NCBI GenBank assembly: GCA_902594745.1
Contig: CACJNF010000001.1
Span: 186,001 to 250,000 of the forward strand
Reading direction: 5' to 3'
DNA: 64,000 bases
Source of the DNA: an uncultured Bacteroidota bacterium
GTDB lineage: Bacteria > Bacteroidota > Bacteroidia > Flavobacteriales > Flavobacteriaceae
The notes beneath the pieces were generated by a model. The model was not told where the DNA came from. It searched no databases and saw nothing but the letters and a program-made list of their open reading frames with translations. Each line of letters opens with the position of its first letter. The stretch's first letter is position 1. Position numbers and translations under genes: made by a program. Of the stretch, positions 1,354-23,920 are shown piece after piece.

Positions 1354-1928
1354 TTTTCTGTTAAAATACTAAATCCAATGTGAATATTACCAGTTTCTTT
1401 ATCAACATATAATTCTCTATCCTCTTGGGTTCCATGACAAGTATCTATTGAACAAAAAAGTGATCCACCTGCTAATCTTACTTGATTTGAATTAACAGGC
1501 TCAGTAATATCCCAAACATTTCCAACAATGTTCACAGATTTAACAGCAGAAATTGGATACATATTATCAGAGACAATTAGCCTGTCATCTAAGGATACAA
1601 GCTTCCAATACTCTTCATAAGTAGGAAGCCGAACACCCGCCCATTTACAATACTCAATTGCATCTTTATAACTTACCTGTGTTACAGGTAAACTATCAAT
1701 TGATTTGTTAATACCATCTGGTTTTATCCAATTTGCACCATTGACAACTTTATAATCATAAACATTCTCTTGAACAAATGACCAACCATACTCTTCGGCG
1801 CTAGTTATGTATCCAGTTTCATTAATAAACTCCTTAAATTCCTTAACTGAAACAGTCCTAAGATCATAATCTATTTTAGATGTGCATGAAATTAAAACCA
1901 GGGATAAGATCATTAAGATTTTTTTCAT
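1350..1928 (-). CDS. Compact lipoprotein formylglycine-generating-enzyme (FGE/SUMF1) domain protein
   Basis: Lipobox LISC; VSVKEFKEFINETGYITSAEEYGWSFV, LPVTQVSYKDAIEYCKWAGVRLPTYEEYWKL, GNVWDI, GGSLFCSIDTCHG (C-x4-C as in FGE). Confidence 0.8.
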   Translation of the reverse strand: MKKILMILSLVLISCTSKIDYDLRTVSVKEFKEFINETGYITSAEEYGWSFVQENVYDYKVVNGANWIKPDGINKSIDSLPVTQVSYKDAIEYCKWAGVRLPTYEEYWKLVSLDDRLIVSDNMYPISAVKSVNIVGNVWDITEPVNSNQVRLAGGSLFCSIDTCHGTQEDRELYVDKETGNIHIGFSILTEK

Positions 1929-3549: not shown

Positions 3550-3553
3550 TATT

Positions 3554-3631
3554 TTAATTTTTAAAGCTAGGGTTTATTGAAACTTTATTTGCATTTGTTT
3601 CATTCTTTAAATTATTTATTTTTTTTAACAT
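3554..3631 (-). CDS. Possible 25-aa small ORF filling the only larger intergenic gap of the sulfatase array (MLKKINNLKNETNANKVSINPSFKN)
   Basis: ATG 3 nt after the upstream sulfatase stop codon, stop 4 nt before the next sulfatase ATG; manual translation. Confidence 0.25.
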   Translation of the reverse strand: MLKKINNLKNETNANKVSINPSFKN

Positions 3632-3634
3632 AAT

Positions 3635-5206: not shown

Positions 5207-5218
5207 TAAAATATTTAA

Positions 5219-6700
5219 TTACCAATTAGTGTTTATCCTACCTGAAAGCTTCCCATCAATTATGAGTAAATTAATACTATCAACAAACTTTTGATCATAC
5301 TTAATGTTTTTTTCAAAAGGTATTGGAGCATTATTTGCCTCTCTCCATAAATTTAAGCTATTAAAAAGTTCTGTTGTTTTTTGGACATTCACTTTACTTA
5401 AATCATATGATTCTGATATATCATTTTCAATATTGTAAAGTTCTTTTTTATCATTTTCAAAATAGTGATGCAGTTTCCAGTTGTCTTCAATTATAACCGA
5501 ACCAGGTCTTGTTCTAAATAAAGGATCTGTTCCGTTATCCTCTTGAACATTATATGCCTGAAGATAAATAGGAAAATGGTAAAACAAAGCTCTTTTTTCA
5601 ATTTTTCTACCATCAAAAATTGGGTTTAAATCTATTCCATCTAGTTTTAGATCTTTGTTTTTATAACCAATAATATTTTGAATTGTAGGAAAAAAATCAA
5701 TATTGCTTACTCTTTCATAAGATTTACTTGCCTCTTTTATTTTACCTCTCCATGAAAAAATTAAGGGTACTTTTATACCTCCTTCATAGTATGATCCTTT
5801 TCCCGCCCTAAGTGGTGATTGGTTTGATATAGCTCTAATACCACCGTTATCAGAAGTGAAAATAAAAAGTGTATTTTCAGATAAACCTAGTTGTTCAATT
5901 TTATTTATAATTTTTCCAATATTTTCATCAACTGACTGAATCATACCTGCATAATCTGCTCGATTATGATTTTCATTTCCATCTTTTAATGAATATTTTT
6001 TTTGAAGGTCTTTTTTTGATTGAATTGGAGTATGAACAGAGTAAAATGATACATATGCAAAAAAGGTTTCATTTTGATTAGTATCTATAAAATTTAAAAC
6101 TTCATTTCCTAATCTATCAGTAAGATATTCACCTTTGGGGCCATCTAAAATATTTGGATTTTTATAAGGAGAAAAATACCCTCCTTTAGGACTCCCAGTT
6201 TGATTGCCACCAAAATTATAATCAAAACCTTGATCTTCAGGATAGAATCCCTCATTACCAAGATGCCATTTACCAAAATGAGCATTTAAATACCCTTTAT
6301 CTTTTAACATTTCAGGAATTAAAATATACTCTAAATCAAGATTTCTTTTATTTTTTATTGGTATCAATTTTCGAGTTTTGTCATTCCCTCTTTCTGAACC
6401 AACTAGATCTTGATTATCAGCAACTGTATAGATCCCGTGACTTGTTGAATATTTACCAGTAAACATTGTAGCCCTGCTAGGTGTACAATTTGCTGCAGAA
6501 GCATATCCATTATAAAATGTCATTCCACTTTTTGAAAGATTATCAATATTTGGAGTTTCATAATACTTTGAACCCATAAAAGATAAATCTGTCCATCCTA
6601 AATCATCTACAAAAAATAAGACAATATTTGGATTCTTATTGTCAATTGATTTACAAGATATAATTAGGGTTAAAAAAATAATTAGTACTGTTTTTTTCAT
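5219..6700 (-). CDS. Sulfatase 3 (S1 superfamily lipoprotein)
   Basis: Lipobox IISC; FVDDLGWTD; CTPSR; AHFGKWHLG; TSDNGG. Confidence 0.92.
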   Translation of the reverse strand: MKKTVLIIFLTLIISCKSIDNKNPNIVLFFVDDLGWTDLSFMGSKYYETPNIDNLSKSGMTFYNGYASAANCTPSRATMFTGKYSTSHGIYTVADNQDLVGSERGNDKTRKLIPIKNKRNLDLEYILIPEMLKDKGYLNAHFGKWHLGNEGFYPEDQGFDYNFGGNQTGSPKGGYFSPYKNPNILDGPKGEYLTDRLGNEVLNFIDTNQNETFFAYVSFYSVHTPIQSKKDLQKKYSLKDGNENHNRADYAGMIQSVDENIGKIINKIEQLGLSENTLFIFTSDNGGIRAISNQSPLRAGKGSYYEGGIKVPLIFSWRGKIKEASKSYERVSNIDFFPTIQNIIGYKNKDLKLDGIDLNPIFDGRKIEKRALFYHFPIYLQAYNVQEDNGTDPLFRTRPGSVIIEDNWKLHHYFENDKKELYNIENDISESYDLSKVNVQKTTELFNSLNLWREANNAPIPFEKNIKYDQKFVDSINLLIIDGKLSGRINTNW

Positions 6701-6710
6701 TTAAAGAATA

Positions 6711-8114
6711 TTACTTAGTTATAATCTCTATTAATTCCTTTTCAGAAAGATCTACATTATCATTAATCTGTATCATCCAATTATCTAGTTGAGCTCTAAG
6801 TTCTTCTATCTGACTTGAAAAAGCTTTATCTGTAATTAGATTATTTAATTCAAATGGATCATTTTCTAGATCATAAAACTCCTCATTGCTTTTAGGGGAC
6901 TTAAACCAAAGTTTTTGTTCTGGTGAGAGAAGGTTTAATTTATTTAAGTTAGTTAGATGTCTCATTAAATTCATTTGAGTTCTGTAATAATTGTCTATTG
7001 CATGGGGTTGATTAGTGTCATAATTCCTAACATATTTATATTTTTTTGTTTTTACAGCTCGTTTTCTTTCAGTAATCTCATCAAACCTATCACTAGCACT
7101 AAATGAATACTTTCTTTTATTTTTTGATTCTTTTGAACCTAAAAATGCATTACCTTGAAATATCTCTGGAATTTCAATTCCAGCAATAGATAAAATTGTT
7201 GGTGCAAAGTCAATGAAACTTAATAAGTCATAATTTCTATCTTCTTTAACTTTTTCGGAATACGGGAACTTAATTATCAATGGGACTTTTAATCCAGTTT
7301 CATATATTGCTCTTTTATGTCTTGGAAAAGGACCTCCATGATCACTGTAAAAAAAGATATAGCTATCGTCATATAAGTCTTGCTCAATGAGCTTATCAAT
7401 AATCTTACCCATTTGTTTATCCATTTCAATTATATTAGAATAATTTACAGCCAATGAGTGTCTAACAATTGAATCATTTGGAAAAACTGGAGGAACAATA
7501 ATGCTATCTGGATTTACTTTAAGCTCTTGTTTATCCCTGATCCAGATTTGAGATTCATGAGTAACTCCAAAGTTAAAAACTGAAAAGAAAGGCTGGTTAT
7601 TATTTCTGTTTTCCCAACTAGCTTCTCTACTAGATTCATCCCAAGCTTCATCTGTTAATTTAAAATTATAATCTTGTTTTGAATTATTAGTTGTATAATA
7701 TCCATTTTCCCTTAAGATTTGAGTAAATGGTTTAATCTGCTCAGCTAGTTTGGAGGAATAATATTGAAATTCTAACAAATGTTCACTTTCTGGCCTTACC
7801 TCTCTATTGTAATTATAAGCTCTTTGATGACCTGTTCCAATTGAGTTAGGGTACATTCCTGTTATAATTGAGCTTCTAGCTGGAGCACATACAGGATAAG
7901 GAGAACTCATACCCTCATATACTGTTCCATTTTCTAAAAGTTTATTAATGTTTGGTAACTCAATAGCATTATCACCATAGTATGGAAAAAAATATTGCGA
8001 TTGATCTTCAGCTACTATCCATATAATATTAGGTTTTGTATTATTTTCAATACTACAACCAATTGATATTAATGAAAATATTAAAAAAAATAATTTGAAG
8101 AATTTTTTTTTCAT
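6711..8114 (-). CDS. Sulfatase 4 (S1 superfamily lipoprotein; N-sulfoglucosamine sulfohydrolase-like group)
   Basis: Lipobox SIGC; VAEDQSQYF; CAPAR; YSDHGGPFPRHKRAIYETGLKVPLI. Confidence 0.9.
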   Translation of the reverse strand: MKKKFFKLFFLIFSLISIGCSIENNTKPNIIWIVAEDQSQYFFPYYGDNAIELPNINKLLENGTVYEGMSSPYPVCAPARSSIITGMYPNSIGTGHQRAYNYNREVRPESEHLLEFQYYSSKLAEQIKPFTQILRENGYYTTNNSKQDYNFKLTDEAWDESSREASWENRNNNQPFFSVFNFGVTHESQIWIRDKQELKVNPDSIIVPPVFPNDSIVRHSLAVNYSNIIEMDKQMGKIIDKLIEQDLYDDSYIFFYSDHGGPFPRHKRAIYETGLKVPLIIKFPYSEKVKEDRNYDLLSFIDFAPTILSIAGIEIPEIFQGNAFLGSKESKNKRKYSFSASDRFDEITERKRAVKTKKYKYVRNYDTNQPHAIDNYYRTQMNLMRHLTNLNKLNLLSPEQKLWFKSPKSNEEFYDLENDPFELNNLITDKAFSSQIEELRAQLDNWMIQINDNVDLSEKELIEIITK

Positions 8115-8121
8115 TTTATGG

Positions 8122-9558
8122 TTAATCTAAATTAGCTCTTCTTTTAATATACTCAGTATATTCTGGACGTTTAATTAGATCATTTAAAAATGGCTCATAT
8201 CTTTCATCAGAAGGCCACCATTTTCTTCCATCCTCATTTATAAATTCTTCATTATAGTCATTCCCATTAATACTTTCATTTACTGTTCTATTCCACTTTA
8301 TAAATTCATCTTTCATTTCTTGAAAGACAATCGGGTAAGATGAACTTATATTTAAGGATTCTTTAGGATCATTTAGCAGATCATACAATTCAAAATTATT
8401 TTTTTTAATGCTTGTTACTACTAGTTTAAAATTATTATCTATTAATGCACCCTTATCAAGATAACGGAATGGAATTTTATTTTTTCTTTTCTCAATCTTT
8501 GAATTAAATAAAGGAAAAAGACTTTCCCCATCAAATGGCATTAACATAGTAGAGTCAGGTAAATTTAAAATATCAACTATTGTGGGAAAAATATCCATTG
8601 TTGAAGATGGATAGGTGCTAATTCTACTTTTAATTACTGATGGCCATTCAATTATACTAGGAACTCTAATACCGCCTTCCCAAATATCCCCTTTTTGACC
8701 CTTTAAACCTCCTACAGTCAAGGGTGATATATTCTGTTTTTTACCAAGACCTCCATTATCGCTATTAAACCATAAAATGGTATTGTTGGAAATACCTATT
8801 TCCTGAAGACCTTTTCTAAAATCTCCTAAACTATTATCAAATGCAACTAATTCTCCATAATGATTTTTACTTCTTTCATCTAAATTGTTAAAATCAATAT
8901 TATCCTTATCATCTGCAATAAATGGAGAATGTGGTGATCCATCCCAAATAAGAATAAAAAAGGGCATTTCTTTGTTTTTTCTCTCTTTTATAAAGGATAA
9001 GGCCTCATTAAATATAATCTCTGAGGAATTTCCATTAAAGTCAATAAAATCTCCATTTTCACTCATTAATGGATTTATATCAAAAAAATTTGTAACTGAT
9101 AACCAATGGTCAAATCCAAAATTTTGAGGGCCATATTTATCATCTATTAAAATAGGAGCACCTGGACCTCTTAATCCATTTAAATGCCATTTACCAAAAT
9201 GTGCAGTTATATATCCATTATTTTTTAATGCTTGTGAAATTGTTTTTTCTTGAAGTCTAAGACGATAACCATGATCATACACACCAGTTCTATCATTACT
9301 TCTTCCTGTTAATACTGATGCTCTAGTTGGAGAACAAACTGGTGCACCTGCGTAAAATCTATCAAAACGTAATCCATTATTAGCCATCTCATCCAAGTTA
9401 GGGGTTTTTAAAAGGGGATGATTATAATAACCTGTTTGACCCCAACCCTGATCATCTGTCATAATCAAAATAATATTAGGTTTTTGAATCATTTCTTTTT
9501 GAGAGCACCCAATAAGAAAAAGGTTAAAGAAAACAATAAAAAGTCTGCTGATCTTCAT
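8122..9558 (-). CDS. Sulfatase 5 (S1 superfamily lipoprotein)
   Basis: Lipobox LIGC; MTDDQGWGQ; CSPTR; AHFGKWHLNG; NSDNGG. Confidence 0.92.
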   Translation of the reverse strand: MKISRLFIVFFNLFLIGCSQKEMIQKPNIILIMTDDQGWGQTGYYNHPLLKTPNLDEMANNGLRFDRFYAGAPVCSPTRASVLTGRSNDRTGVYDHGYRLRLQEKTISQALKNNGYITAHFGKWHLNGLRGPGAPILIDDKYGPQNFGFDHWLSVTNFFDINPLMSENGDFIDFNGNSSEIIFNEALSFIKERKNKEMPFFILIWDGSPHSPFIADDKDNIDFNNLDERSKNHYGELVAFDNSLGDFRKGLQEIGISNNTILWFNSDNGGLGKKQNISPLTVGGLKGQKGDIWEGGIRVPSIIEWPSVIKSRISTYPSSTMDIFPTIVDILNLPDSTMLMPFDGESLFPLFNSKIEKRKNKIPFRYLDKGALIDNNFKLVVTSIKKNNFELYDLLNDPKESLNISSSYPIVFQEMKDEFIKWNRTVNESINGNDYNEEFINEDGRKWWPSDERYEPFLNDLIKRPEYTEYIKRRANLD

Positions 9559-9567
9559 AATTGAGTT

Positions 9568-11016
9568 TTAATCCAAAGAATTATCTATTCCATCAGTATT
9601 TCCATTGTTATCCCTATACTGAAGTAAATCTTCTGGTGCATTAAGGTTGTTTTGATGAGATTCAAGCACTTCATATATTTTTTTTAATATTTCAGGATTT
9701 TCATCAGCTATATCATATTTTTCAGAAGGATCTATATCTAAATTATAAAGCAAAGGATTTTTCAAATATGTTTTTATATCACGAGAAGGATAATTATAGA
9801 CTCCATTTGTAATAAAATGAGCCTTAAATTGACGATATCTAAGAGCATATACCTCTCTCTCTCTATAGAAAATAACTTTTTCTCTTTTAGATGGTTCAAG
9901 ATTTAAGAGAGTGTTTTTTATACTCAACCCATCTATTATTCTATCATCAACTTGTCCTGAGTTTGACATTTCTAGGATTGTCGGAAAGATATCCAATGTA
10001 GAACCTAGGTCATCTATTACAGATGGTTTAATTCTTCCACCCCAAAAAATCCCTGGAACTCTATGTCCTCCCTCCCAAGTACTTCCTTTTCCTTCTCTGA
10101 GAAGTCCTGCTGAACCAGATTGAGATTCAAATGGAAGCCAGGGTCCATTATCAGATGTAAAAATTACAATTGTATTTCTGTCAAGATTGTTTCTTTCTAA
10201 CTCATCAATAATTCTGCCAATACCATGGTCAATTTCTTCTACAACATCTCCATATAGACCTCTTTTACTTTTACCAGTAAATTCATCCGAGGCATAAAGA
10301 GGGGTATGAGGAAGGTTGTGTGCTAAATACAAGAAAAAATTATTTTTTTTATTATCTCTAATAAATTCAACTGCTTTATCTGAATATCTTTTAGTAATTG
10401 TTGTTTGATCTGCTGGTCTCTCTATAATATTATTGTTCTCAATTAAAGGAACATTATAATTTGATGAATCCGGTCTCTTTTTTTCGTATTGTTGCCAATA
10501 TCTTGGTCCAGGACAGCAGGTGACTCCATTAATTGGATCCATATCATTCGAATATGGGATACCGAAATAATAATCAAATCCATGCTGAAGAGGAAGATAT
10601 TCTTTTTTATGACCTAAATGCCATTTTCCAATAATAGCATTTTTATAACCATTTTCTTTTAGTTTCTCAGCAATTGTAATTTCAGAATCAGGAATTCCAT
10701 ACTGTGAATCAGGAAAAAATACTCTAGTCTTAGATCCAATCATTCCGTTTCTAATTGGAAGCCTTCCAGTTAACAACGCAGCCCTACTCGGGGTACACAC
10801 ACTTGAAGCAGAATAAAATTGAGTCCATTTTTGCCCTTCATATGACAGTCTATCTAGAGTGGGAGTTTTAATTGTTGGATGTCCATATGAACCTAGATCC
10901 CCATATCCTAAATCATCTACAAAAATTACTATAAAATTTGGTCTACTTTCGTTATTTAAATTATTACAAGAGACTGTTATAAGAAATAAACAAAATATTA
11001 AAAAAAAATTTTTCAT
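9568..11016 (-). CDS. Sulfatase 6 (S1 superfamily lipoprotein, arylsulfatase A/GALNS-like)
   Basis: Lipobox TVSC; FVDDLGYGDLGSYGHPTIKTP; CTPSR; AIIGKWHLGH; TSDNGPWL. Confidence 0.92.
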   Translation of the reverse strand: MKNFFLIFCLFLITVSCNNLNNESRPNFIVIFVDDLGYGDLGSYGHPTIKTPTLDRLSYEGQKWTQFYSASSVCTPSRAALLTGRLPIRNGMIGSKTRVFFPDSQYGIPDSEITIAEKLKENGYKNAIIGKWHLGHKKEYLPLQHGFDYYFGIPYSNDMDPINGVTCCPGPRYWQQYEKKRPDSSNYNVPLIENNNIIERPADQTTITKRYSDKAVEFIRDNKKNNFFLYLAHNLPHTPLYASDEFTGKSKRGLYGDVVEEIDHGIGRIIDELERNNLDRNTIVIFTSDNGPWLPFESQSGSAGLLREGKGSTWEGGHRVPGIFWGGRIKPSVIDDLGSTLDIFPTILEMSNSGQVDDRIIDGLSIKNTLLNLEPSKREKVIFYREREVYALRYRQFKAHFITNGVYNYPSRDIKTYLKNPLLYNLDIDPSEKYDIADENPEILKKIYEVLESHQNNLNAPEDLLQYRDNNGNTDGIDNSLD

Positions 11017-11019
11017 AAA

Positions 11020-12525
11020 TTATTTTTTCGGGCGAATCTTAATATAATCCCATCCTTTCCTATACCTAGGCTCAAATTGATTCCCTAACCCTTCAGGTTT
11101 AGTTCTAGCATTAGCTATACGTTCAGCAATAACATTTATTAATGAGTCTTTGACATCTTTATAATCAGCATTTTCTGCTAGATTATTCATTTCTTCACTA
11201 TCTACATTGTGGTCATAAAGCTCATAACCCATTGATCCATTTTCACCCCACTGAGTTAGTCGGTATCTATTTGTTTTTATCGAATATCCTTGAACGGGTA
11301 TTCTATCTATATTTAATTCTGTAAGTGCACTTTCTCTAGATACTTTTGATGAGTCTTTTAAAAGAGGTGCAAAACTCTTTCCTTGAACAAATTCTGGAGT
11401 TTCCATACCTACAAGATCCATTATTGTAGGATACATATCTATAAGTTCTATAGGTGCTTTCATGATTTTTTCATTTTTGTTTATTCCTGGACCCGAAACA
11501 ATCAAGGGCACACGAGTTGAATGCTCAAATAGAGTTCTTTTTTGCCAATGTCCATATTCACCTAAATGATACCCATGATCAGAAGTAAAAAATACTATAG
11601 TATTTTTATCAAGTCCTGTCTCTTTAAGTTTATCTAATACTCTACCTATTTGAGCATCAACAAAAGAATTTGTAGCGTAATATGCCTTTTTAATTGTTTG
11701 AGCTAATTCATATTCAAGATTTCTCTCTTCAGCTTTCTCAGTAACAGTACTAACAGCAGGCAAAGGAATCGTTTTATAATAATCTTCTGAAACTTTTGGT
11801 ATTATCATTTCATTTTTATCAAAAAGATCAAAATATTTCTTTGGAGCAACGTAAGGAGTATGAGGTCTATATAGACCATAAGCTAGAAAGAAGTTTTCAC
11901 CACTTTTGGCAAATTTATCAAGAAACTCTATAGTTTCAGTTGCTCCTATACCATCAGTTTGTTCTTCATCAGTTCCATCTGCTTCATGCCAACTTAAAGT
12001 TCCACCAAACTTTCCTGGAATTAAAGATTTAACTTTATACTCTTCAAGCTTATCTCTTCCATAGGGATTAACTGTTTGATCCCATGTCCTATTATCATCA
12101 TGACCTGATGTTCCAATTTGACCAGGATTATGATAATGAAATATTTTACCTATTCTTACTGAGTGATAATTTTCCTGCCTAAATCTTTCCCCAATAGTTG
12201 TTACATCAGGTATGGTCTCTCTTAGATAAATTAGTAATTTTTTTATTTTTGTTTGGTCTGGATATAGGCCAGTCATGAATGAGGCTCTTGACTGAGCGCA
12301 TTGAGGATATTGATTGTGAGCATTCATAAAGGTAACCCCTGACTCAGCTAGTTTATCAATATTTGGAGTTATTGCTTGATTATCACCATAAGCACCAATT
12401 CGAGTATTTAAGTCATCTGCAACTATAAACAAAACATTTAATTTAGTGTCTTTGGATATTTCTGGCGAATTATCAGTACAACTTATTAGTAGAATTGAAA
12501 TAAAAAATACTTTGATTTTATTCAT
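11020..12525 (-). CDS. Sulfatase 7 (S1 superfamily lipoprotein, iduronate-2-sulfatase-like) with variant CAQSR motif
   Basis: Lipobox LISC; VADDLNTRIGAYGD; PQCAQSRASFMTG; SDHGYHLGEYGHWQKRTLFEHSTRVPLI. Confidence 0.9.
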   Translation of the reverse strand: MNKIKVFFISILLISCTDNSPEISKDTKLNVLFIVADDLNTRIGAYGDNQAITPNIDKLAESGVTFMNAHNQYPQCAQSRASFMTGLYPDQTKIKKLLIYLRETIPDVTTIGERFRQENYHSVRIGKIFHYHNPGQIGTSGHDDNRTWDQTVNPYGRDKLEEYKVKSLIPGKFGGTLSWHEADGTDEEQTDGIGATETIEFLDKFAKSGENFFLAYGLYRPHTPYVAPKKYFDLFDKNEMIIPKVSEDYYKTIPLPAVSTVTEKAEERNLEYELAQTIKKAYYATNSFVDAQIGRVLDKLKETGLDKNTIVFFTSDHGYHLGEYGHWQKRTLFEHSTRVPLIVSGPGINKNEKIMKAPIELIDMYPTIMDLVGMETPEFVQGKSFAPLLKDSSKVSRESALTELNIDRIPVQGYSIKTNRYRLTQWGENGSMGYELYDHNVDSEEMNNLAENADYKDVKDSLINVIAERIANARTKPEGLGNQFEPRYRKGWDYIKIRPKK

Positions 12526-12527
12526 GA

Positions 12528-14021
12528 TTAAAAAGGACCTTTATTATTATTTTCTGTAGCATTATTGGATGATCCAGGGAACTCACCTCTAATGCCATGA
12601 TTTTTAGTTTTTACAAGATCTATAGATTTACCTAGATTATTTCTTGTTTCAATTGGTCCAGGAGTTCTCAAGTACCAATCTTTTGTAATTTCTTCTGGTT
12701 GTGAATCACCAGTTTCATTTTTCCATCTATTTAATATAAGTCTCAAATTATTTATTTCTTCATTTAATTTATCGTCATCTATTAAATTCTTTCTTTGAAA
12801 TAAATCATTTTTCAAAACATAAAACTCCTCTTCTAATCTTGGACTGTCAAATATTTCACCTTGAACTTCTGTTATTTCTCCAAGCTTATTTTTTTCCAAT
12901 AGACTTGCATATGTAGAGCTGTTTATTGCATCTAACGGACCTGCCTGAGGAAACTCATTTCTATTGTTCTGGATTAACATATAATTTTCATTTTTAACCA
13001 TTCTTTGATGGGATTCGTAGTCATGCCAATTATGTTCGGCAAAAACATAATTCCTAAACTTTTCATCAGGATTTTCAAGAAGTTTTCTAAAACTCTTTCC
13101 CTGAAAATTTTCTTTAATATCAATACCAGCATAATCTAGAATTGTAGGAGCAATATCTATTACGCTTACTAAGCTTTCTGTTTTACCTAATATCTTTTCA
13201 TCATTATATACAAATATAAATGGTGTTTTAACCCCTTGATCGTTCAACCTTGTCTTACTATGTGGAAATGGTCTTCCATTATCAGACATGATCATTAAGA
13301 TTGTATTATCATATACATTTTGTTCTTTTAATTTTGAAATTACTTCACCAATAAAGTAATCAAATCTTTTAATCTCATCATAATAGTGAGCTAAATCCTG
13401 TCTTGTCTGTAAGTCATCAATTAAATAATCAGGTACAATAATATCATCTAATTTGTGTGTGCCTGAAAAATCATTTTCAGCCCAATCCCTATGTGGGTCG
13501 TGAGCTGCAGCCCAGATAAAAAATGGTTTATCTTTTGGTCTGTCTGTTATAATATTCACCCACTGATCCTCTCCACCAAGACCTACCAAGTCTATACCCT
13601 CATGAATAACATCAAATCCAGGTCTAGCATAGTCACCAATATGCCACTTTCCTGAAGATACAGTATAATAACCAGAGGATTTTAACTCTTGAGCAAATGT
13701 TTTCATTCCCATTGGAGGTTGAGTATGAAGCTCAGGTGCACCATGATTGTGTGGATACCTCCCCGTCATTATAGAATTTCTACTAGGACTACAAGAGCTA
13801 GTAGTTAAATACATATTATTAAAGATTAATCCTTCTTTAGCAAGGTTATCAATATTTGGTGTGCTAACAAATTTATTTCCATAAGCACCAATATCGTCCC
13901 AGCTTATATCATCAGCTATGAAGATTATAAAATTTGGTCTTTGTATTTCTCTATCTATAGATGAATTACATGATATTATAAATAGAAACAGTATTAATAT
14001 TGAAGTTATTCTTTTTTTCAT
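12528..14021 (-). CDS. Sulfatase 8 (S1 superfamily lipoprotein; N-sulfoglucosamine sulfohydrolase-like group)
   Basis: Lipobox IISC; IADDISWDDIGAYGN; CSPSR; VSSGKWHIGD; SDNGRPFPHSKTRLNDQGVKTPFI. Confidence 0.92.
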   Translation of the reverse strand: MKKRITSILILFLFIISCNSSIDREIQRPNFIIFIADDISWDDIGAYGNKFVSTPNIDNLAKEGLIFNNMYLTTSSCSPSRNSIMTGRYPHNHGAPELHTQPPMGMKTFAQELKSSGYYTVSSGKWHIGDYARPGFDVIHEGIDLVGLGGEDQWVNIITDRPKDKPFFIWAAAHDPHRDWAENDFSGTHKLDDIIVPDYLIDDLQTRQDLAHYYDEIKRFDYFIGEVISKLKEQNVYDNTILMIMSDNGRPFPHSKTRLNDQGVKTPFIFVYNDEKILGKTESLVSVIDIAPTILDYAGIDIKENFQGKSFRKLLENPDEKFRNYVFAEHNWHDYESHQRMVKNENYMLIQNNRNEFPQAGPLDAINSSTYASLLEKNKLGEITEVQGEIFDSPRLEEEFYVLKNDLFQRKNLIDDDKLNEEINNLRLILNRWKNETGDSQPEEITKDWYLRTPGPIETRNNLGKSIDLVKTKNHGIRGEFPGSSNNATENNNKGPF

Positions 14022-14026
14022 TTTTT

Positions 14027-15550
14027 TTATTTATTATCTAAAGCTGGTATTTTGAATTTATCCATTTTTGGTGTTGTATGTGCCTCTCTCATAAAATCTT
14101 CCATTCTAGATACAATTTCAGGATGCTTAAATGCTATATCATTTAATTCTTTTGGATCTTCATCTAAGTTATAAAGTTGCAGTTTTGAAGGGCCTTTAAA
14201 TAAATTCTTTTTAATCCCTTTCCAATTATTGACTCTAATTGCCTGTTGGCCACCATAAGCAGGGAACTCCCAATATAGATAATCATGTTTATCTTGTTTT
14301 TCATCTATAAGTGTAGGATAATAACTTATGCCGTCTATTGAATAAGGAAGTTCTTTATTAATAATATCAGATATTGTTGCAAAATAGTCGTAGAAGGTAC
14401 TTGGATGTTCTGAATAAGTTCCAGGCTTAATTTTTTTAGGCCAAGTTGCAATTGTAGGAACCCTTATACCTCCTTCATTAACACTACCTTTAACAGTGTT
14501 TTTAGAGTTTACAAAAGGTCCTGCACTATTGAAGAAATTAATATCAACGTGTTCTACATGTGTTGGACCATTATCACTTGAAAAAACAATAAATGTATTA
14601 TCATATTTTCCAATTTCTTTAAGCTTTGCAACTATTTCTCCAACTTGTTCATCTAAATAAGAAATCATTGCTGCGTATGTAGCTTTAGGATACTGATTTG
14701 GATAATAAGAATTCCCTACATAGGGTTCTTCTTTACCAAATTTTTCGCGGTAGTAATCTACCCATTTCATTGGTGCTTGAAGAGGTAAATGCGGAATTGG
14801 AGAAGCATAATAAAGAAAAAAATTATTGTCTTTGTTGGAATCCAAAAAACTTAAAGCTTCGTTATGCATCAAAGTTGGGGCATAATCATTCTGATTGTAT
14901 AAATTGTAACTATTAGTATTATATGGATCCAATCCTTCTTTAAGTCGACCTTTGTTAACTATCTCATTATCTAGTATATGTCTTTCTTTATTTCTCCAGA
15001 GATGGGTAGGATAAAGTGTGTGAGCTTGTCTTTGACAATTATATCCATAAAAAAAGTCAAAACCTTTATTATTAGGAATACTATTAGTATTTGGAGCACC
15101 AAGACCCCACTTTCCAACCATACCAGTTTTATATCCATTTGATTGTAGGAATTCTGCAACAGTTATAATTGAATCTGGCATCGGTCGTTGACCCTCTAGA
15201 TCTGAATTTTCAAACATAGCTTGAAAACTCCATACATCTCCTCTTTCTCTCCATTCATCATTTCCGCGGATTGGATTATTTCCAGAATGAAGACCAGTTA
15301 AAAGTACTGCTCGTGCAGGAGCACAAACAGGGGAACCGGTGTAATGGTCTTTAAGAATCATTCCTTCTTTAGCTAATTGATCAATATTAGGTGTTTCAAT
15401 GAATTTTTGTCCAAGAATACCTAACTCACCATATCCTAGATCGTCAGCTAAAATGAATACAAAATTTGGTCTTAAATCATCTTTTTTTGTTTCGCATGAA
15501 GAAAAAATGATTAAAAAAAAGATTGTAGATAATAAATGATTTATTTTCAT
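14027..15550 (-). CDS. Sulfatase 9 (S1 superfamily lipoprotein)
   Basis: ORF track start 15598; MKINHLL... start at 15550 preferred because it gives a signal peptide (lipobox FSSC). LADDLGYGELGILGQ; CAPAR; GMVGKWGLG; SSDNGPT. Confidence 0.9.
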   Translation of the reverse strand: MKINHLLSTIFFLIIFSSCETKKDDLRPNFVFILADDLGYGELGILGQKFIETPNIDQLAKEGMILKDHYTGSPVCAPARAVLLTGLHSGNNPIRGNDEWRERGDVWSFQAMFENSDLEGQRPMPDSIITVAEFLQSNGYKTGMVGKWGLGAPNTNSIPNNKGFDFFYGYNCQRQAHTLYPTHLWRNKERHILDNEIVNKGRLKEGLDPYNTNSYNLYNQNDYAPTLMHNEALSFLDSNKDNNFFLYYASPIPHLPLQAPMKWVDYYREKFGKEEPYVGNSYYPNQYPKATYAAMISYLDEQVGEIVAKLKEIGKYDNTFIVFSSDNGPTHVEHVDINFFNSAGPFVNSKNTVKGSVNEGGIRVPTIATWPKKIKPGTYSEHPSTFYDYFATISDIINKELPYSIDGISYYPTLIDEKQDKHDYLYWEFPAYGGQQAIRVNNWKGIKKNLFKGPSKLQLYNLDEDPKELNDIAFKHPEIVSRMEDFMREAHTTPKMDKFKIPALDNK

Positions 15551-15566
15551 AAAGTTGAATATAAAA

Positions 15567-15604
15567 AAAAGATTGCTTAATGCGTATGCACTAAACAATC
15601 TTTT
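15567..15604 (-). terminator. Intrinsic-terminator/attenuator-like hairpin between susD-like gene and sulfatase array
   Basis: Minus-strand RNA: AAAAGATTG U UUA G UGC-AUAC-GCA U UAA G CAAUCUUUU followed by further U; fully paired on the minus strand using two G.U wobbles, mismatched on the plus strand. Confidence 0.7.
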
Positions 15605-15623: not shown

Positions 15624-17204
15624 CTATCTGTAACCATTATTTGTTGGATCTGTATTCAACAAATTAGGATTATTCTGAATTTCCTCTAAAGGAATTGGTA
15701 ATAAATGATGACGAGGAGCATAGTTTACTTTACGAGCATTATGCTGTTTGAAAACTGTAGTATTTTGAATTCTCTCAGCTAATAACCCCCATCTAATTAA
15801 ATCTCTTTTTCTTTGATGCTCTCCCATAAGTTCAAAAAACCTTTCTTCTTGAAGAGCTTCTCTAAAACTTGTTTGATTAAGACCACTAAGAGGTTTATCT
15901 GGCTCAAATGCTCTTTCTCTAACTTTATTTATATACTGATAAGCTTCACTAGGACCTGCAAGTTCATTTTGAGCCTCTGCAGCCATTAAATATACATCTG
16001 CTAGTCTAAGTAATATAAAGTTTTCATGTCTATTACCTCTATATGAAGCTGCAAGGTTAGGTTGCCAAAGTTTCTTAAAATATTTATGTTTCAATTCAAA
16101 CCCTTCATAATGAGTTATAATTGTTGCGTCATATCTTAGATCACCTTCTTGCCATCTTGATCTTTTAGCAGCATCTGGAAAAGGGCTATAAGCACCAAAA
16201 CCATTGAACTCATCACCATTAGCAGCTAATGCGGCATTAAACGCTGCTTTTTCTGCCTTGTTTTTAGGCTCATCTCTTCCTCTAGGTGTCATTTCCTCAA
16301 CAAATCCTCCTGAATTTCTTGCATAATCTGCTGCAGACATAACTCCTTCACCAGATAAACCAGCAAAATCAATCCAAGCTATCATTTCTTTATTTTGAGG
16401 ATCACCGATCATCATCCTTGATCTTCCATAAACATCCTCGAAATTATCCATCAATGCATGTGGAGAACCGTTAATAATTTGATTGGCAGTTGCAACTGTT
16501 TCAGCCCATTCTCTATCATATAGATGAATTTTTGTCTTAAACCCTAAAGCAGCCCATTTTGTAAATCTACCATAATCAACACCACTCCACTCACTAGGAA
16601 GTAAAGAAGCAGCTCTTTCAAGATCAGATTTAAGATCTGTTCTAATCGTAGCAACTGGGGTTCTTTCAATCTTTCCAAGCACCTCTGAACTAGGTAAATC
16701 TCTGAAATAAGGAACATCACCCCACATAACTGTTAATTCCCAATAAATTAAAGCTCTAATTGTTAAAAGTTGACCAATTGCATGATCTCTAAATGTATTA
16801 GAGAGTTTATCATTTCCTTCAATATTTTCCAAAGCTGAGTTAGCATCTCTAATAGTTTGGTACCAAACACGCCAAGTATTACCATATCCTGCTTCAACTC
16901 CTTCTTCATAAAGATAGTTGTGATATACACCTGCTACATTTCCTCTTGAAGGACCTCCTTCATCTGATCCATAATGAGACATTGATGCATATTGTCTGTT
17001 TCTATGACCATTGTTAGAAATCAAACCCATCATGACTCCGTTAACAGCTAATGCTGCTTCAGCATCATTATTATAAAATGTTGCTGGAGAAAGTGCATCT
17101 CTAAGATCTTCTTCAAGAAATGCATCGTCATCACATGAAATGGGTAATACAATTAAACCCATCATTAGTATAATGTGTAAAAAGTTAAATTTTCTTGTTT
17201 TCAT
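15624..17204 (-). CDS. SusD/RagB-family nutrient-binding outer-membrane lipoprotein
   Basis: PISCDDDAFLEEDLRDALSPATFYNNDAEAALAVNGVM; C-terminal NFILLRLADVYLMAAEAQNEL; follows the susC-like gene. Confidence 0.95.
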   Translation of the reverse strand: MKTRKFNFLHIILMMGLIVLPISCDDDAFLEEDLRDALSPATFYNNDAEAALAVNGVMMGLISNNGHRNRQYASMSHYGSDEGGPSRGNVAGVYHNYLYEEGVEAGYGNTWRVWYQTIRDANSALENIEGNDKLSNTFRDHAIGQLLTIRALIYWELTVMWGDVPYFRDLPSSEVLGKIERTPVATIRTDLKSDLERAASLLPSEWSGVDYGRFTKWAALGFKTKIHLYDREWAETVATANQIINGSPHALMDNFEDVYGRSRMMIGDPQNKEMIAWIDFAGLSGEGVMSAADYARNSGGFVEEMTPRGRDEPKNKAEKAAFNAALAANGDEFNGFGAYSPFPDAAKRSRWQEGDLRYDATIITHYEGFELKHKYFKKLWQPNLAASYRGNRHENFILLRLADVYLMAAEAQNELAGPSEAYQYINKVRERAFEPDKPLSGLNQTSFREALQEERFFELMGEHQRKRDLIRWGLLAERIQNTTVFKQHNARKVNYAPRHHLLPIPLEEIQNNPNLLNTDPTNNGYR

Positions 17205-17221: not shown

Positions 17222-20200
17222 TTAAAATTTAATATTTAATCCTAAGGATACGCTCGAAGAGTAAGGATATGATGAATCAGAAACACCTCTGTTTAATTGA
17301 TTTCCATACTGACTTACTTCAGGGTCACCCCATTTATAATCACTTATTAAAAGTAGATTTTGTGCACTTAAATAGATTGATGCATCTCTTACAAATGGAG
17401 GGTTATCTATATCATATGTAAGTGTAACATTTTTTAATCTAAAGAATGATGCATCTTGAAAAGAAGTTTCATTTGTTGTAACATATGTTCCGAAGGCAGT
17501 ACCTGCTCTAGGTATATCAGACATATTATTTTCTTCCGTCCATCTATCTTTTAGCTCCGGTAGAAGGTTTAAATATGCTCCTCTTGCATAATAACTTTCT
17601 GCAACAGAACCATTAAACATTGTGTTTCCAATTGAGAAATGAGCAAAAGTATCAAGAGTCCATTTTTTGTAAGAAAAAACATTTCTTATACCACCAAACA
17701 AATCTGGTTCTGGACTTCCCTGATAAACATAATCTAAATCATTCCATGTACCATCACCATTTTGATCCTCAAGTCTTGGTCCACCAAGAAATGATCTACC
17801 AAATCTTCCATCAGTATCGATTTCATTTCTTGTTTTGTATGTACCAAGATTATTTGCACCCCAAAAACTAGGGATTGGATAACCAGGTGTAAGCCTTATC
17901 GGGTTACCATTACTTGGATGAACAACATCATCAAGAGTAATATAGTCTTGACCTTCACCGAGCGAAATTAATTCACTTTTATTTTGTGATAATGAAATTG
18001 AAGTTGACCACACAAAATCTGTTTTATCTATATTAACTGATGATATAGATAATTCAAATCCTTTATTCTCAATTTCTCCAACATTCTCAAGTCTTGTATT
18101 ACCTGCTGTATATGGCAAAGGTTTTTCCAAAAGAAGATCTTCAGTTCTTTTTTCATAGTAATCAAACTCAAGACTATATCTATTATTTGCAAATCCAATT
18201 TCTAAACCAATATCCGACTGATATGTTTTTTCCCATTCCAGTCCTTGACTAGGAATAGAACTAAGAAGAACAGTGTTTAATCTTCCATCATTCAAAAACA
18301 TTGGAAAATCACTATATCTAGCAAATGAATTGTATGGAGGAACTCCTTGCTCACCAACAATACCATAACTTGCTCTTAATTTAAGATTACTTATTACATC
18401 TTGGTTCTGCATAAAGTCTTCTTCACTAACTATCCATGCTGCACCTATTGATGGGAAAGTAGCATACTTGTTTCCTGTTTCAAAAACTGAGGATCCGTCT
18501 CGCCTTGCTACTAGAGTAAGAAAATATCTATCCATATAGCCATAATTAATCCTACTAAGGATTGATGTATATGTTCTCTGTCCATAATTAGATCCAATTA
18601 AATTAGATTCAGGATCTGCACCAAGAGATAAATTATTAAAAGTAAGCACATCATTAGGATATCCTTCACCTGTTGCCATAGTCATAGTAGAAGTTGTTTT
18701 TTGTCTAGTATATCCGGCAAGAATTTTCAATGAATGGTCACCATCCTCAAATGAGTAGGTTGCTGTATTTTCAAAAAGATAATTCCTGTTTTGATTGTGT
18801 CTAACTCTCGCAATTCCACCTGAATTTGCGACACTTCTTGGAGGAATGTATGTAGGGAGATAGTAATTGTTTTTATTCCAACCCATATTAATTCCAAGTG
18901 AACTTTTTAGTGTAAGACCAGGAATTAAGTCATACTCAATATATGCATTGCTATTAAGATTAGTAATAAAACTATGGTCTATTCTATCTGTAACATCTGC
19001 AACTGGATTTCTTTGTGGAATTCCACTTATAGGGTTTACTCCAGTATACGTTTTTCCATCAGCTTCATAGATTTGCCAATAAGGAATTGTCTGATAATAG
19101 ACATTTGACCAATTTAACTTTTGATTTTCTTGCTTTCTATCCACTAAACTGAACCTAATACCAGTTCTTAGCTTATCATTTACCTTTGTATCTAAATTAA
19201 GTCTAAGTCCGTTTCTTAAAAGACCTGATCCTTTAACTACACCTTTTTGATCAAATCTACTTATAGAGACGAAATAATTAGTTTTCTCTGAATTACCAGA
19301 AATATTTAGATCTGTATTGTTTATATGTCCATCTCTTAAAATAGCACTGTTCCAGTCTGTATCCCATCTGTCGTCATATGGAAACACATAGTTAGGATCA
19401 TTTGCACCATATCCATCTTCACCAGGAATTAAACTAAGACCTTCACTCCAATATTCTTTCCAAAGTGCAACATCTCCTAGTTCAGGCATAGCTTTAACTT
19501 CGTCAAATGAAGTATAATGGTTCAAACTGACTTCAACACTCCCCTCTGGTGTTGAAAGTCCACTTTTTGTTTGTATTAATATAACTCCAGCTGCTCCTCT
19601 TGTACCATAAATAGCAAGTGAACTAGCATCTTTTAAAATTTCAATTGATTGAATATCATTTACATTAATATTATTAAGATCAAAATCCGTCCCAACAATT
19701 ACATCATCAATTACATATAGTGGACCATTATTTCCGCTGATTGAACTAATACCTCTAATTGATATTGTAGCTCTAGAACCAGGCTCTCCATTATTGCTTA
19801 TTACACTTACACCTGCTGCTTTACCTTGAAGTATATTAGAAACATTGGATGCAGGTTGGTTTGTTAGTTCATCACCTGATACTTGTGATATTGAAGATAC
19901 CAACTCTCTTTTAAGTGTTGAACCATATCCTGTTAAGACAACTTCATCAAGAGCAGATCTAGATGCGACAAGAGAAACTTGAATATTATCTGAATTACTT
20001 ACAGATATTGTCTGTGAAGTAAATCCAATATAAGAAATCACTAGAATAGCATCTTCATCTGAAATATCCAACGAAAAATTACCATCAAAATCAGATGTTG
20101 TTCCATTAGAAGTTCCTGATTCAAGAATAGATGCTCCCGGGAGAGGGATTCCATTCGAGTCTGTTATTTTTCCAGTTACAGTAGCTTGAATTATATCTAC

Positions 20201-20554
20201 AGTTAAATTATTTGATATATTCTTTTCCTTAAGAATTATTTTATCATCTACAATTTCATAATTGATTTCATTATTAAAAATAATTTCTAATAAATTATCA
20301 ATTTTCTCATTAGTTACATCGACAGATATGACTTTATTAAAATCGTAAGCATCTAAAGAATAAATAAATTTATACTTTGAAATTGCTTCAATTTCATCTA
20401 TAACTTGAACCAAGTTTGAATTATTCATCTTCAAGGTGATATCTTGAGCAGAAGAGTAAATTATATTGGTTGAAATTAATGTGAGAATAATGAAAACAGA
20501 GTTCCTTAGTCTATCAATAAAAGATATACTATTTCTATTTTGATTGTTATTCAT
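17222..20554 (-). CDS. SusC/RagA-family TonB-dependent transporter with N-terminal STN domain
   Basis: STN domain (LVQVIDEIEAISKYKFIYSLDAYDFNKVISVDVTNEKIDNLLEIIF), carboxypeptidase-regulatory-like domain (VTGKITDSNGIPLPGASI), plug VLTGYGS...IRGISSI, SIEILKDASSLAIYGTRGAAGVILI. Confidence 0.96.
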   Translation of the reverse strand: MNNNQNRNSISFIDRLRNSVFIILTLISTNIIYSSAQDITLKMNNSNLVQVIDEIEAISKYKFIYSLDAYDFNKVISVDVTNEKIDNLLEIIFNNEINYEIVDDKIILKEKNISNNLTVDIIQATVTGKITDSNGIPLPGASILESGTSNGTTSDFDGNFSLDISDEDAILVISYIGFTSQTISVSNSDNIQVSLVASRSALDEVVLTGYGSTLKRELVSSISQVSGDELTNQPASNVSNILQGKAAGVSVISNNGEPGSRATISIRGISSISGNNGPLYVIDDVIVGTDFDLNNINVNDIQSIEILKDASSLAIYGTRGAAGVILIQTKSGLSTPEGSVEVSLNHYTSFDEVKAMPELGDVALWKEYWSEGLSLIPGEDGYGANDPNYVFPYDDRWDTDWNSAILRDGHINNTDLNISGNSEKTNYFVSISRFDQKGVVKGSGLLRNGLRLNLDTKVNDKLRTGIRFSLVDRKQENQKLNWSNVYYQTIPYWQIYEADGKTYTGVNPISGIPQRNPVADVTDRIDHSFITNLNSNAYIEYDLIPGLTLKSSLGINMGWNKNNYYLPTYIPPRSVANSGGIARVRHNQNRNYLFENTATYSFEDGDHSLKILAGYTRQKTTSTMTMATGEGYPNDVLTFNNLSLGADPESNLIGSNYGQRTYTSILSRINYGYMDRYFLTLVARRDGSSVFETGNKYATFPSIGAAWIVSEEDFMQNQDVISNLKLRASYGIVGEQGVPPYNSFARYSDFPMFLNDGRLNTVLLSSIPSQGLEWEKTYQSDIGLEIGFANNRYSLEFDYYEKRTEDLLLEKPLPYTAGNTRLENVGEIENKGFELSISSVNIDKTDFVWSTSISLSQNKSELISLGEGQDYITLDDVVHPSNGNPIRLTPGYPIPSFWGANNLGTYKTRNEIDTDGRFGRSFLGGPRLEDQNGDGTWNDLDYVYQGSPEPDLFGGIRNVFSYKKWTLDTFAHFSIGNTMFNGSVAESYYARGAYLNLLPELKDRWTEENNMSDIPRAGTAFGTYVTTNETSFQDASFFRLKNVTLTYDIDNPPFVRDASIYLSAQNLLLISDYKWGDPEVSQYGNQLNRGVSDSSYPYSSSVSLGLNIKF

Positions 20555-20577: not shown

Positions 20578-21732
20578 TTAGTTTATGATTATTTTATTGT
20601 TAAATATTTGAAAATCAATATTATATATTTTATTAAAGTAGCCTAAAACCTCTTCAATCGTTTCTTCTTCAACATTTATACTTGCATTAAATAATTGATT
20701 CGATATTTCACTATTATTAATGATTGTTATGTTATAAAGTCTTTGCAGCTTTTGAATAATCTGCTCAAAAGTTTCATTTCTAAATATTACATCTCCATCA
20801 ACCCAAGAAGTATATATCTTTGAGTTAACCTTTGATTTTGTAATTTTAAATATCTCTTTATCAATAGAGGCTTTATATCCAGGTGAAAGCATGTTTATAT
20901 CGGTGGAGTTATCATTAGATATTCCAAGAGATCCTTCAACTAAAACTATATCTGAAGAGAAATCTTCTGAAAAGTTTTTAAAATTAAATTTGGTGCCATA
21001 AACAGAGGCTACAATTTGATTTGAACGAACTTCAAAGATTGAATTGGCAGCTTTTTTAACATTAAAAAATGCTTCACCTTCAATATATACAGATCTAGTT
21101 TGATTTGGTAAAAATGAAATTGGGTATTTCATTATAGTACCTGAATTTAGGTAAACATCAGTACCATCAGATAATTTTAGATTAAACCTTTTGCCATATG
21201 GAACATTTATAGTGTGAACCTCAACTTTTTCAGTTTCAACTACTATATTTTCCTCATATACAATGCGATTGGATTCCTTGAAAGAATTCTTAGATATTTG
21301 AATAGAATCTATTTTCTCAATTAGAAAAATTTCACCTTTTTCATTTTCAATAAAAATTTCATCTTCGTCTGGAATTATTACCTCAGCAGTTTCTGTTGAA
21401 TTAATTTGATTTAAGGTGTAAAGATGGCTTAAATAAAAAACCACTACAAAAACCGCAGCATATTTTAGTGATTTAATAAAATATTTTTTTCTCTTTTCTC
21501 TTTTTTGATCTTTCTTAATTTTATTTTTAATAATATCTATTATTTCGTCTTTATCCATTCTATTCATAACGTAAATTGAAAAAAAATTAATTTTTATGTA
21601 GAGCTTAAATAAACTGAGATTCTTAGAATCTTTTAAGTAGGTCAATAATAATTTTAAGTCTTCTGTTTTAGTATTTTGATTTATATACTTAATAATTAAA
21701 TTCTCAAAATTCTTATCTATTTTTAAACTCAT
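20578..21732 (-). CDS. FecR-family anti-sigma factor
   Basis: One TM segment (YAAVFVVVFYLSHLY), VPYGKRFNLKLSDGTDVYLNSGTIMKYPISF, IEGEAFFNVKK, C-terminal STN-like ending. Confidence 0.93.
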   Translation of the reverse strand: MSLKIDKNFENLIIKYINQNTKTEDLKLLLTYLKDSKNLSLFKLYIKINFFSIYVMNRMDKDEIIDIIKNKIKKDQKREKRKKYFIKSLKYAAVFVVVFYLSHLYTLNQINSTETAEVIIPDEDEIFIENEKGEIFLIEKIDSIQISKNSFKESNRIVYEENIVVETEKVEVHTINVPYGKRFNLKLSDGTDVYLNSGTIMKYPISFLPNQTRSVYIEGEAFFNVKKAANSIFEVRSNQIVASVYGTKFNFKNFSEDFSSDIVLVEGSLGISNDNSTDINMLSPGYKASIDKEIFKITKSKVNSKIYTSWVDGDVIFRNETFEQIIQKLQRLYNITIINNSEISNQLFNASINVEEETIEEVLGYFNKIYNIDFQIFNNKIIIN

Positions 21733-21765
21733 TAATATATATACATATCAAAAAAGACAAACCCC
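21733..21765 (-). promoter_or_regulatory. Candidate ECF-type promoter of the fecR-susCD-sulfatase operon
   Basis: Minus strand GGGTT (21760-21764) - N15 - GTATAT (21739-21744) - N6 - ATG; same geometry upstream of sulfatase 10. Confidence 0.55.
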
Positions 21766-21795
21766 TAAAATTTTTATTAAATTGTTTAATATATT

Positions 21796-22326
21796 TTGAA
21801 AATAAATACTAAAAATTTAGTTCAATTACTTAAAAAAGCTGATGAAGATGCTTTTTCATACTTAGTTGATAAGTATCATAAAAGACTATTTGCATATGCT
21901 ATAAGTTTATCTGGCGACTATTCAATGGCAAAAGATATAGTTCAAGAAGTATTTATTAAAACATATGAATTTCGAAAGAAATTAGACCCTAATTATTCTA
22001 TTGACGGTTTTTTATATAGGTCTGTATATAATCAGTTTATTAACTCATACCATAAAAATAAATCACTATTGAAAATCCATGATGAATATGTTAAATATTT
22101 AAATCAAATTATTAATGAATCCTCTGAATCAGACTTTGATATATTAATTAAATTAATTGATAAATCCATAAATAAACTACCTAAAAAGTGTAAAGAGATT
22201 TTTAAATTAAGTAAAACCGAGGGGCTAACAAATCATGAAATTGCAACTTTATTAAATATTTCAGTAAAAACAGTTGAAGCTCAAATTACAATTGCTTTTA
22301 AAAAAATTAAAGCAGATATTGCTTAA
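21796..22326 (+). CDS. RNA polymerase ECF-type sigma factor
   Basis: LLKKADEDAFSYLVDKYHKRLFAYAISLSGDYSMAKDIVQEVFIK; C-terminal HTH LTNHEIATLLNISVKTVEAQI; TTG start. Confidence 0.93.
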   Translation: MKINTKNLVQLLKKADEDAFSYLVDKYHKRLFAYAISLSGDYSMAKDIVQEVFIKTYEFRKKLDPNYSIDGFLYRSVYNQFINSYHKNKSLLKIHDEYVKYLNQIINESSESDFDILIKLIDKSINKLPKKCKEIFKLSKTEGLTNHEIATLLNISVKTVEAQITIAFKKIKADIA

Positions 22327-23700
22327 TTAGTAGTTACAGCAATCTAAAGGTGAAAGAATAATACCTGGTTCTCTGTTCAAAAATTTATTATCAGTAATTT
22401 TAATTTTACTAAAAAGTTTTTCTTTTATCAAGAGTTGATCTTTAGTTAAATTTTCATCTAAAAGTGGTTGTTTCTCATAAATATCATTTTCAATATCAAA
22501 AAAACTTCCATCTTCATAAAGTTTATATTTAACAGTTTGAGAAAAATAGTTTTTATCTCGGTTTTGACCCCATAATGGGTTATAAAATATTGATACTATT
22601 TCTCTATCATTAATAATATTATCTGAAAAGATATCCATCATACTTGTACCATCACTTTCATCAGGAACTCCTAGAATATCTGAAAATGTTGAATAGAAGT
22701 CAGCAAAAGTTATTAAATCTGAATTAGTTGAATTATTTTTAATTTTTGATGGCCAACTTACTACCATAGGAACATTAACCCCTGTTTTATTTGTTAGACC
22801 TTTACCACCTGGAATAATATCATTAATAGTATTTGATGTTATTTGTCTAGGAGTTCCATTATCACCAACAAAGATTAGTAGTGTGTTTTCAAAAATACCT
22901 TGTTGTTTTAGTTCATTTATAATTTTTCCAACGATTTTATCCATATAATTCACCATATCAATAAAATATCTAGTATCTGGAGTTGATCTGGTTTCTAAAG
23001 ATGACCATTCTGGTGAATCTGGAGTAGGAACAAAAGGATCATGAACAAGTAACATTGGATAATAAATAAAGAAAGGATTGTCCTTATTTCTTTTAATAAA
23101 TTCAACAGCATAATCAGATACAATATCAGGTCCATATGAGTTTTCATTTCTAGGTAAAAAATTACCATTTTGCTCTATAAGAGGATTAGCGAACCTCTCT
23201 CCATATTGCTTTGGTTTAGTTAATTGCCATAGAGAATATTCATCAAAACCAAATTCATAAGGTCTAGTATTATCCTTAGCAACTTCTCTATCAACATCGC
23301 CAATTCTTAAACCATTTAATTGCCATTTCCCAACAATAGCTGTTTTATAACCATTCTCTTTAAATAGGTTACCAAAAGTTTTCTGGTTAGAATTTAAATA
23401 AGTAAAATGATCATAATTCCTAAAATTGTATTTACCTGTCATTATTTTTACCCTTGAAGGTGTACATAGGGGCTGAGATAATGCGTTTGTAAAGTTTATT
23501 CCATTTAAGGCTAATGAATCTAGAAATGGAGTATTATATGATGTACTACCGTTAATACTCAGACCTTCATGGCCAATGTCATCTGCCATTATTAAAATAA
23601 CATTTGGCATTTGATTTTCATGATCAATCGATTGACATGAAATAAAAAAAGTAAAAAATAAAAGTGGGATTATATGGCTAAAAAATTTCGTGTTTATCAT
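22327..23700 (-). CDS. Sulfatase 10 (S1 superfamily lipoprotein), separate from the main array
   Basis: Lipobox FISC; MADDIGHEGLSINGS; CTPSR; AIVGKWQLNG; VGDNGTPR. Confidence 0.92.
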   Translation of the reverse strand: MINTKFFSHIIPLLFFTFFISCQSIDHENQMPNVILIMADDIGHEGLSINGSTSYNTPFLDSLALNGINFTNALSQPLCTPSRVKIMTGKYNFRNYDHFTYLNSNQKTFGNLFKENGYKTAIVGKWQLNGLRIGDVDREVAKDNTRPYEFGFDEYSLWQLTKPKQYGERFANPLIEQNGNFLPRNENSYGPDIVSDYAVEFIKRNKDNPFFIYYPMLLVHDPFVPTPDSPEWSSLETRSTPDTRYFIDMVNYMDKIVGKIINELKQQGIFENTLLIFVGDNGTPRQITSNTINDIIPGGKGLTNKTGVNVPMVVSWPSKIKNNSTNSDLITFADFYSTFSDILGVPDESDGTSMMDIFSDNIINDREIVSIFYNPLWGQNRDKNYFSQTVKYKLYEDGSFFDIENDIYEKQPLLDENLTKDQLLIKEKLFSKIKITDNKFLNREPGIILSPLDCCNY

Positions 23701-23732
23701 TACTTAATATACAAGAATCAAAACAAGAACCC
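23701..23732 (-). promoter_or_regulatory. Candidate ECF-type promoter of sulfatase 10
   Basis: Minus strand GGGTT (23728-23732) - N15 - GTATAT (23707-23712) - N6 - ATG; matches fecR upstream element. Confidence 0.55.
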
Positions 23733-23756
23733 TTAATTTTAAATAATTAAAAATAG

Positions 23757-23830
23757 TGATCGCGATAGGATTCGAACCTATGACCGTCTGCTTAGAAGGC
23801 AGATGCTCTATCCAGCTGAGCTACGCGACC
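23757..23830 (-). tRNA. tRNA-Arg(TCT)
   Basis: GGTCGCGTAGCTCAGCTGGATAGAGCATCTGCCTTCTAAGCAGACGGTCATAGGTTCGAATCCTATCGCGATC; 7-bp acceptor stem, anticodon TCT. Confidence 0.96.
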
Positions 23831-23836
23831 AGTATG

Positions 23837-23920
23837 CGGAGAGACTGGGATTCGAACCCAGGCAACGTTTACACGTTGACAGATTAGCAATCTGCTCCAT
23901 TACCACTCTGGCACCTCTCC
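23837..23920 (-). tRNA. tRNA-Ser(GCT)
   Basis: GGAGAGGTGCCAGAGTGGTAATGGAGCAGATTGCTAATCTGT...GGGTTCGAATCCCAGTCTCTCCG; long variable arm, anticodon GCT. Confidence 0.95.

Follow-up and report, generated by a model that had tools for sequence, protein, structure and literature searches.

The 64-kb window analyzed here, meaning the whole stretch of 64,000 nucleotides, encodes a fecR-susC-susD-sulfatase operon on the minus strand whose genes run in one direction with short gaps from position 21732 down to position 1350. The operon opens with a FecR anti-sigma factor (20578..21732), in which both the FecR and FecR_C domains score above cut-off, and continues with a SusC/SusD pair made up of a SusC-type TonB-dependent transporter (17222..20554; TIGR04056, 786 bits) and a SusD-type lipoprotein (15624..17204; SusD_RagB), followed by nine sulfatases (1930..15598), each with a PF00884 domain, and an FGE-sulfatase-domain protein at the operon end (1350..1928). 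Near the N-terminus of the SusC-type protein there is a weak match to the STN signaling domain (17.0 bits against a cut-off of 28.4; E value of 0.0054). Adjoining fecR and divergent from it on the plus strand is a gene for a FecI-type ECF sigma factor (21796..22326) with Sigma70_r2 and r4 domains, which a profile search placed above the curated cut-off of TIGR02985 (138.5 versus 126.4 bits). The start codon of this gene is uncertain: no ATG lies near the start, here or in two close relatives, and the TTG at position 21796 is the likeliest candidate. Convergent with the ECF gene is a tenth, detached sulfatase (22327..23700, minus strand) with a lipoprotein-type N-terminus and a CTPSR sulfatase motif, and beyond it on the same strand lie tRNA-Arg(tct) and tRNA-Ser(gct) (23756..23920), the slot at which sulfatase loci insert in this genus. 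The small genome of this marine bacterium (1.27 Mb, 84% complete, 30% G+C) encodes a single FecR and a single TIGR02985-type ECF beside a FecR. Its three sigma70-type proteins are a 288-aa frame, presumably the primary sigma factor, an ECF sigma factor without a FecR partner (C1:268463), and the ECF of the locus.

The initial annotation had described a bipartite element, GGGTT-N15-GTATAT-N6-ATG, on the minus strand upstream of both fecR and the tenth sulfatase, and the sequence bears this out at both positions. The predicted fecR promoter spans 21739..21764, with GGGTT at 21760-21764 (GGGGTT in full), GTATAT at 21739-21744, and the ATG at 21732; the predicted promoter of the detached sulfatase spans 23707..23732, with GGGTT at 23728-23732, GTATAT at 23707-23712, and the ATG at 23700. 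These two minus-strand sites, each followed after 6 nt by an ATG, are the only exact matches to GGGTT-N15-GTATAT in the window, against 0.03 expected, and none of 100 dinucleotide shuffles contained two. With two mismatches allowed, the window holds 19 matches against 16.8 expected, which is background, and the signal thus lies in the exact pair. In the whole genome, a third exact match sits within a 297-aa coding sequence resembling heme O synthase, leaving the fecR and sulfatase matches as the only noncoding ones; exact matches are thus not scattered before other genes. Recounting the positions shared by the two upstream regions gave 23 of the 36 nearest the ATG rather than the 24 given earlier, and because an unrelated pair of start-codon regions reaches the same value in this AT-rich window, we treat raw identity as weak evidence and rejected it as an argument. 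It is the fixed spacing of the two boxes, and not the identity count, that carries the observation. The reported lack of the housekeeping -7 box also holds, with no TAnnTTTG within 160 nt upstream of either start.

The element is conserved before both genes in orthologous loci of the same genus. In G017 and G018, whose matching contigs belong to the single-cell genomes AG-447-E18 and AG-447-K04, the orthologous locus is present and the fecR element is identical; in the sulfatase element GGGTT and CTTGTAT are kept, and the bases between and after them vary. G002 and G005 share the same sulfatase start with the element present. Substitutions in the sulfatase element of relatives fall mainly in the spacer and 3' of the -10 box, and the element is kept in five genomes with the detached sulfatase as the surrounding bases change. 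We also note a chimera in G007 (L143), in which the N-terminal stretch of the detached sulfatase is fused to another sulfatase and the -35 box reads GGATT instead of GGGTT; this genome is 54% complete, and no FecR was detected in it.

Beyond the genus, divergent ECF/fecR gaps of the Flavobacteriaceae carry AGGGTW-N15-(C/T)GT[A/C]nTA, usually written TTAGGGTAT...CTTGTATTA, with the same spacing before fecR as in the window. In each of the 34 divergent loci examined, which come from many genera, an element scores at least 8 of 11; a spacing of 15 is best in 31 of them, and 22 score at least 10 of 11 at that spacing; the element is absent from the one same-strand ECF/fecR locus in this set. Of 40 held-out fecR loci, 15 reach a score of 10 of 11 or better with a spacing of 15, versus 0.25 in shuffles, with 0 to 2 matches at other spacings and 0 on the reverse strand. 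Allowing A or C at the -10 position, we find the element at 13 of 18 held-out divergent loci versus 1 of the 15 same-strand ones (p = 2.5e-4, Fisher test), and two of the five divergent loci below the 10-of-11 cut have a spacing of 16. When the window was scored with a matrix from whose training this genus had been left out, the two claimed sites took the top two ranks of all positions. Their scores (16.6 and 12.1) do not exceed the maxima of simulated 64-kb windows (10.7 to 20.3), and so it is the rank that counts as evidence; absolute matrix scores do not discriminate in AT-rich DNA and were rejected.

Taken alone, the short consensus is no more frequent in large genomes than chance predicts, at the level of a reversed control pattern, and a scan with the looser consensus was therefore rejected as a way to find regulons genome-wide, even though at least 9 of its 63 matches in large genomes directly precede a fecR gene. 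A Bacteroidales pattern, GGGTA-N15-GTCTTA, likewise gave control-level counts in eight genomes of one Bacteroidales family, with 3 of 7 matches at a FecR locus. A scan for sigma70-type promoters returned background only.

Second sites, analogous to that before the detached sulfatase, are found at other ECF-linked loci. In G010 and G005 (L038 and L039) the element lies 45 to 46 nt before a detached pair of hydrolase genes in convergent orientation to the ECF gene, the position taken by the tenth sulfatase in the window. In G120 and G315 (L112, L113, L164, and L165) it stands, in the downstream part of the locus, before a GH20 gene with a GH2-like gene behind it. In G430, a member of the Bacteroidales (L196 and L200), one element occupies the ECF-fecR gap and a second precedes an upstream unit that is nagB-like and PIG-L deacetylase-like, gene names that were read off the sequence without a profile search.

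We consider it probable, at roughly 85%, that both elements serve as promoters for the FecI-type (TIGR02985) ECF sigma factor encoded between them, which would unite the fecR-susCD-sulfatase operon and the detached sulfatase as one regulon. That the element is an ECF recognition sequence linking the detached sulfatase to the main operon had been proposed from the window sequence, and the proposal is supported by the conservation of the element, its family-wide association with divergent ECF genes, the ranking by an independent matrix, and the single FecR/TIGR02985 pair in the genome. Counting against this reading, on grounds of specificity, are genomes with multiple ECFs in which near-identical elements occur at paralogous sigma loci.

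The setting of the detached sulfatase offers another, rather unlikely explanation, namely that it is transcribed mainly by read-through from the tRNA-Ser/tRNA-Arg unit, the motif being a relic or serving as a minor promoter. Some 55 nt separate the start of the gene from tRNA-Arg, which lies upstream on the same strand, and relatives with an empty site have a terminator behind tRNA-Arg that is missing here. In those relatives (G008, G009, and G020) the slot holds a terminator-like hairpin and then a DUF4442-like gene, which in the present genome follows the sulfatase operon, and other members of the genus have a different sulfatase behind a terminator-like hairpin. With the slot empty or otherwise filled in relatives, these comparisons (L132-L149) suggest that the locus was inserted at a tRNA site which is a hot spot for sulfatase loci. 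The hairpin is lost where the detached sulfatase occupies the slot, and in the sulfatase cassette the element takes the place of the tRNA terminator. Against read-through as the main source of transcripts, the element is retained in the five sulfatase-bearing genomes while neighboring bases change, and a matrix from other genera picks it out; read-through is, moreover, compatible with a coexisting inducible promoter.

Promoter recognition by the locus-encoded ECF also has to be weighed against the idea that the boxes are the site of another regulator, such as an activator, for which conserved bipartite sites are typical too. We regard this as very unlikely, given one dominant spacing over many genera, an ECF-type CGT/TGT-A -10 box at a fitting distance from the start, and an association with divergent ECF genes that same-strand ones do not share; with the housekeeping -7 box absent at both sites, an activator would still require a promoter. 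Recognition of the sites by the other ECF of the genome (C1:268463), or by both ECFs, is equally improbable: a second ECF gene does exist, but it has no FecR partner in the genome, and in relatives the motif goes with loci whose FecI-type ECF gene is divergent. Chance resemblance in a genome of 30% G+C, as the background frequency of looser versions and the 23 of 36 positions shared by another start pair might suggest, is barely credible for an exact pair with 0.03 expected that is kept in relatives and ranked top two by an independent matrix.

At both sites the G of GTA lies 12 nt before the A of the ATG, and the established spacing of ECF promoters puts the transcription start at about this distance from the -10 box. 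With the start codon at the expected transcription start, the transcripts of fecR and of the detached sulfatase are predicted to begin at the start codon or a few bases from it, and the mRNAs to be leaderless. A later translation start is unlikely for the sulfatase, since its ATG opens a lipoprotein-type signal sequence. Across the 31 measurable loci among L031-L068, uncorrected for relatedness, the -10 box lies 11 to 15 nt from the fecR start in all 10 genomes of up to 2.2 Mb versus 18 to 41 nt in all 21 larger ones, and leaderless fecR mRNAs, as predicted from these distances, would accompany small genomes.

In the ferric citrate system of Escherichia coli (FecI/FecR/FecA), a TonB-dependent transporter signals through FecR to an ECF sigma factor; the present locus differs in substrate class, promoter sequence, and locus layout. 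We hypothesize that a sulfated glycan bound by SusC/SusD would cause a signal to pass via FecR and free the sigma factor, and the sub-cut-off STN match on SusC is compatible with glycan sensing through SusC and FecR. RNA polymerase carrying the freed sigma factor would then recognize a -35 box, GGGT, and a -10 box, (T)GTA, inducing the fecR-susC-susD-nine-sulfatase operon and the detached sulfatase together. Because fecR would itself be part of the regulon, negative feedback is expected and the loop would damp itself.

Members of the Bacteroidota have dozens of ECF sigma factors next to glycan utilization loci. Bacteroides thetaiotaomicron encodes 50 of them, nearly half within polysaccharide utilization loci (PULs) (PMC12596196), and according to a 2020 study none of its alternative ECFs had a known motif (PMC7366714). 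The motif later proposed in that species differs in type from GGGT-N15-GTA. In its PUL24, an ECF sigma/anti-sigma pair (BT1877/BT1876) controls a glycan utilization locus, as we propose here, and in an anti-sigma mutant 5' ends appear at two positions: one lies 17 nt ahead of a separate enzyme gene, and the other has no housekeeping promoter (PMC11501099). No recognition sequence was derived there, whereas here one is defined by comparison, and our locus further differs in having a divergent ECF gene and a start codon at the predicted transcription start. SigW-1 (BT1817, ECF251) controls the susCD and sulfatase genes of PUL59 from internal starts (PMC12596196), a similar case of an ECF sigma factor over susCD and sulfatases. 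It acts, however, from a distant locus, and its proposed TGTT motif, which differs from GGGT-N15-GTA, was not significant (PMC12596196). Within the same bacterial family, the SM6 promoters of Flavobacterium psychrophilum have an ECF-type -10 box with CGT but drive type IX secretion genes, and the accessible part of that study describes no FecR/SusCD promoter and puts leaderless mRNAs at only 5.5% (PMC9723704). We found no description of the present motif in the open literature searched; the main ECF classification paper, which was outside our reach, may list a predicted one.

A defined, conserved sequence of this kind would make ECF regulons predictable and would explain how a gene detached from its operon keeps the same control. 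We give about even odds to the broader proposal that GGGT-N15-(C/T)GT[A/C] is the general recognition sequence of TIGR02985 ECFs in glycan utilization loci of the Bacteroidota, and that in marine lineages with small genomes the promoter has shifted to the start codon and the transcripts are leaderless. If this is true, the regulons of hundreds of FecI-type sigma factors, including their detached enzyme units, would be predictable from sequence.
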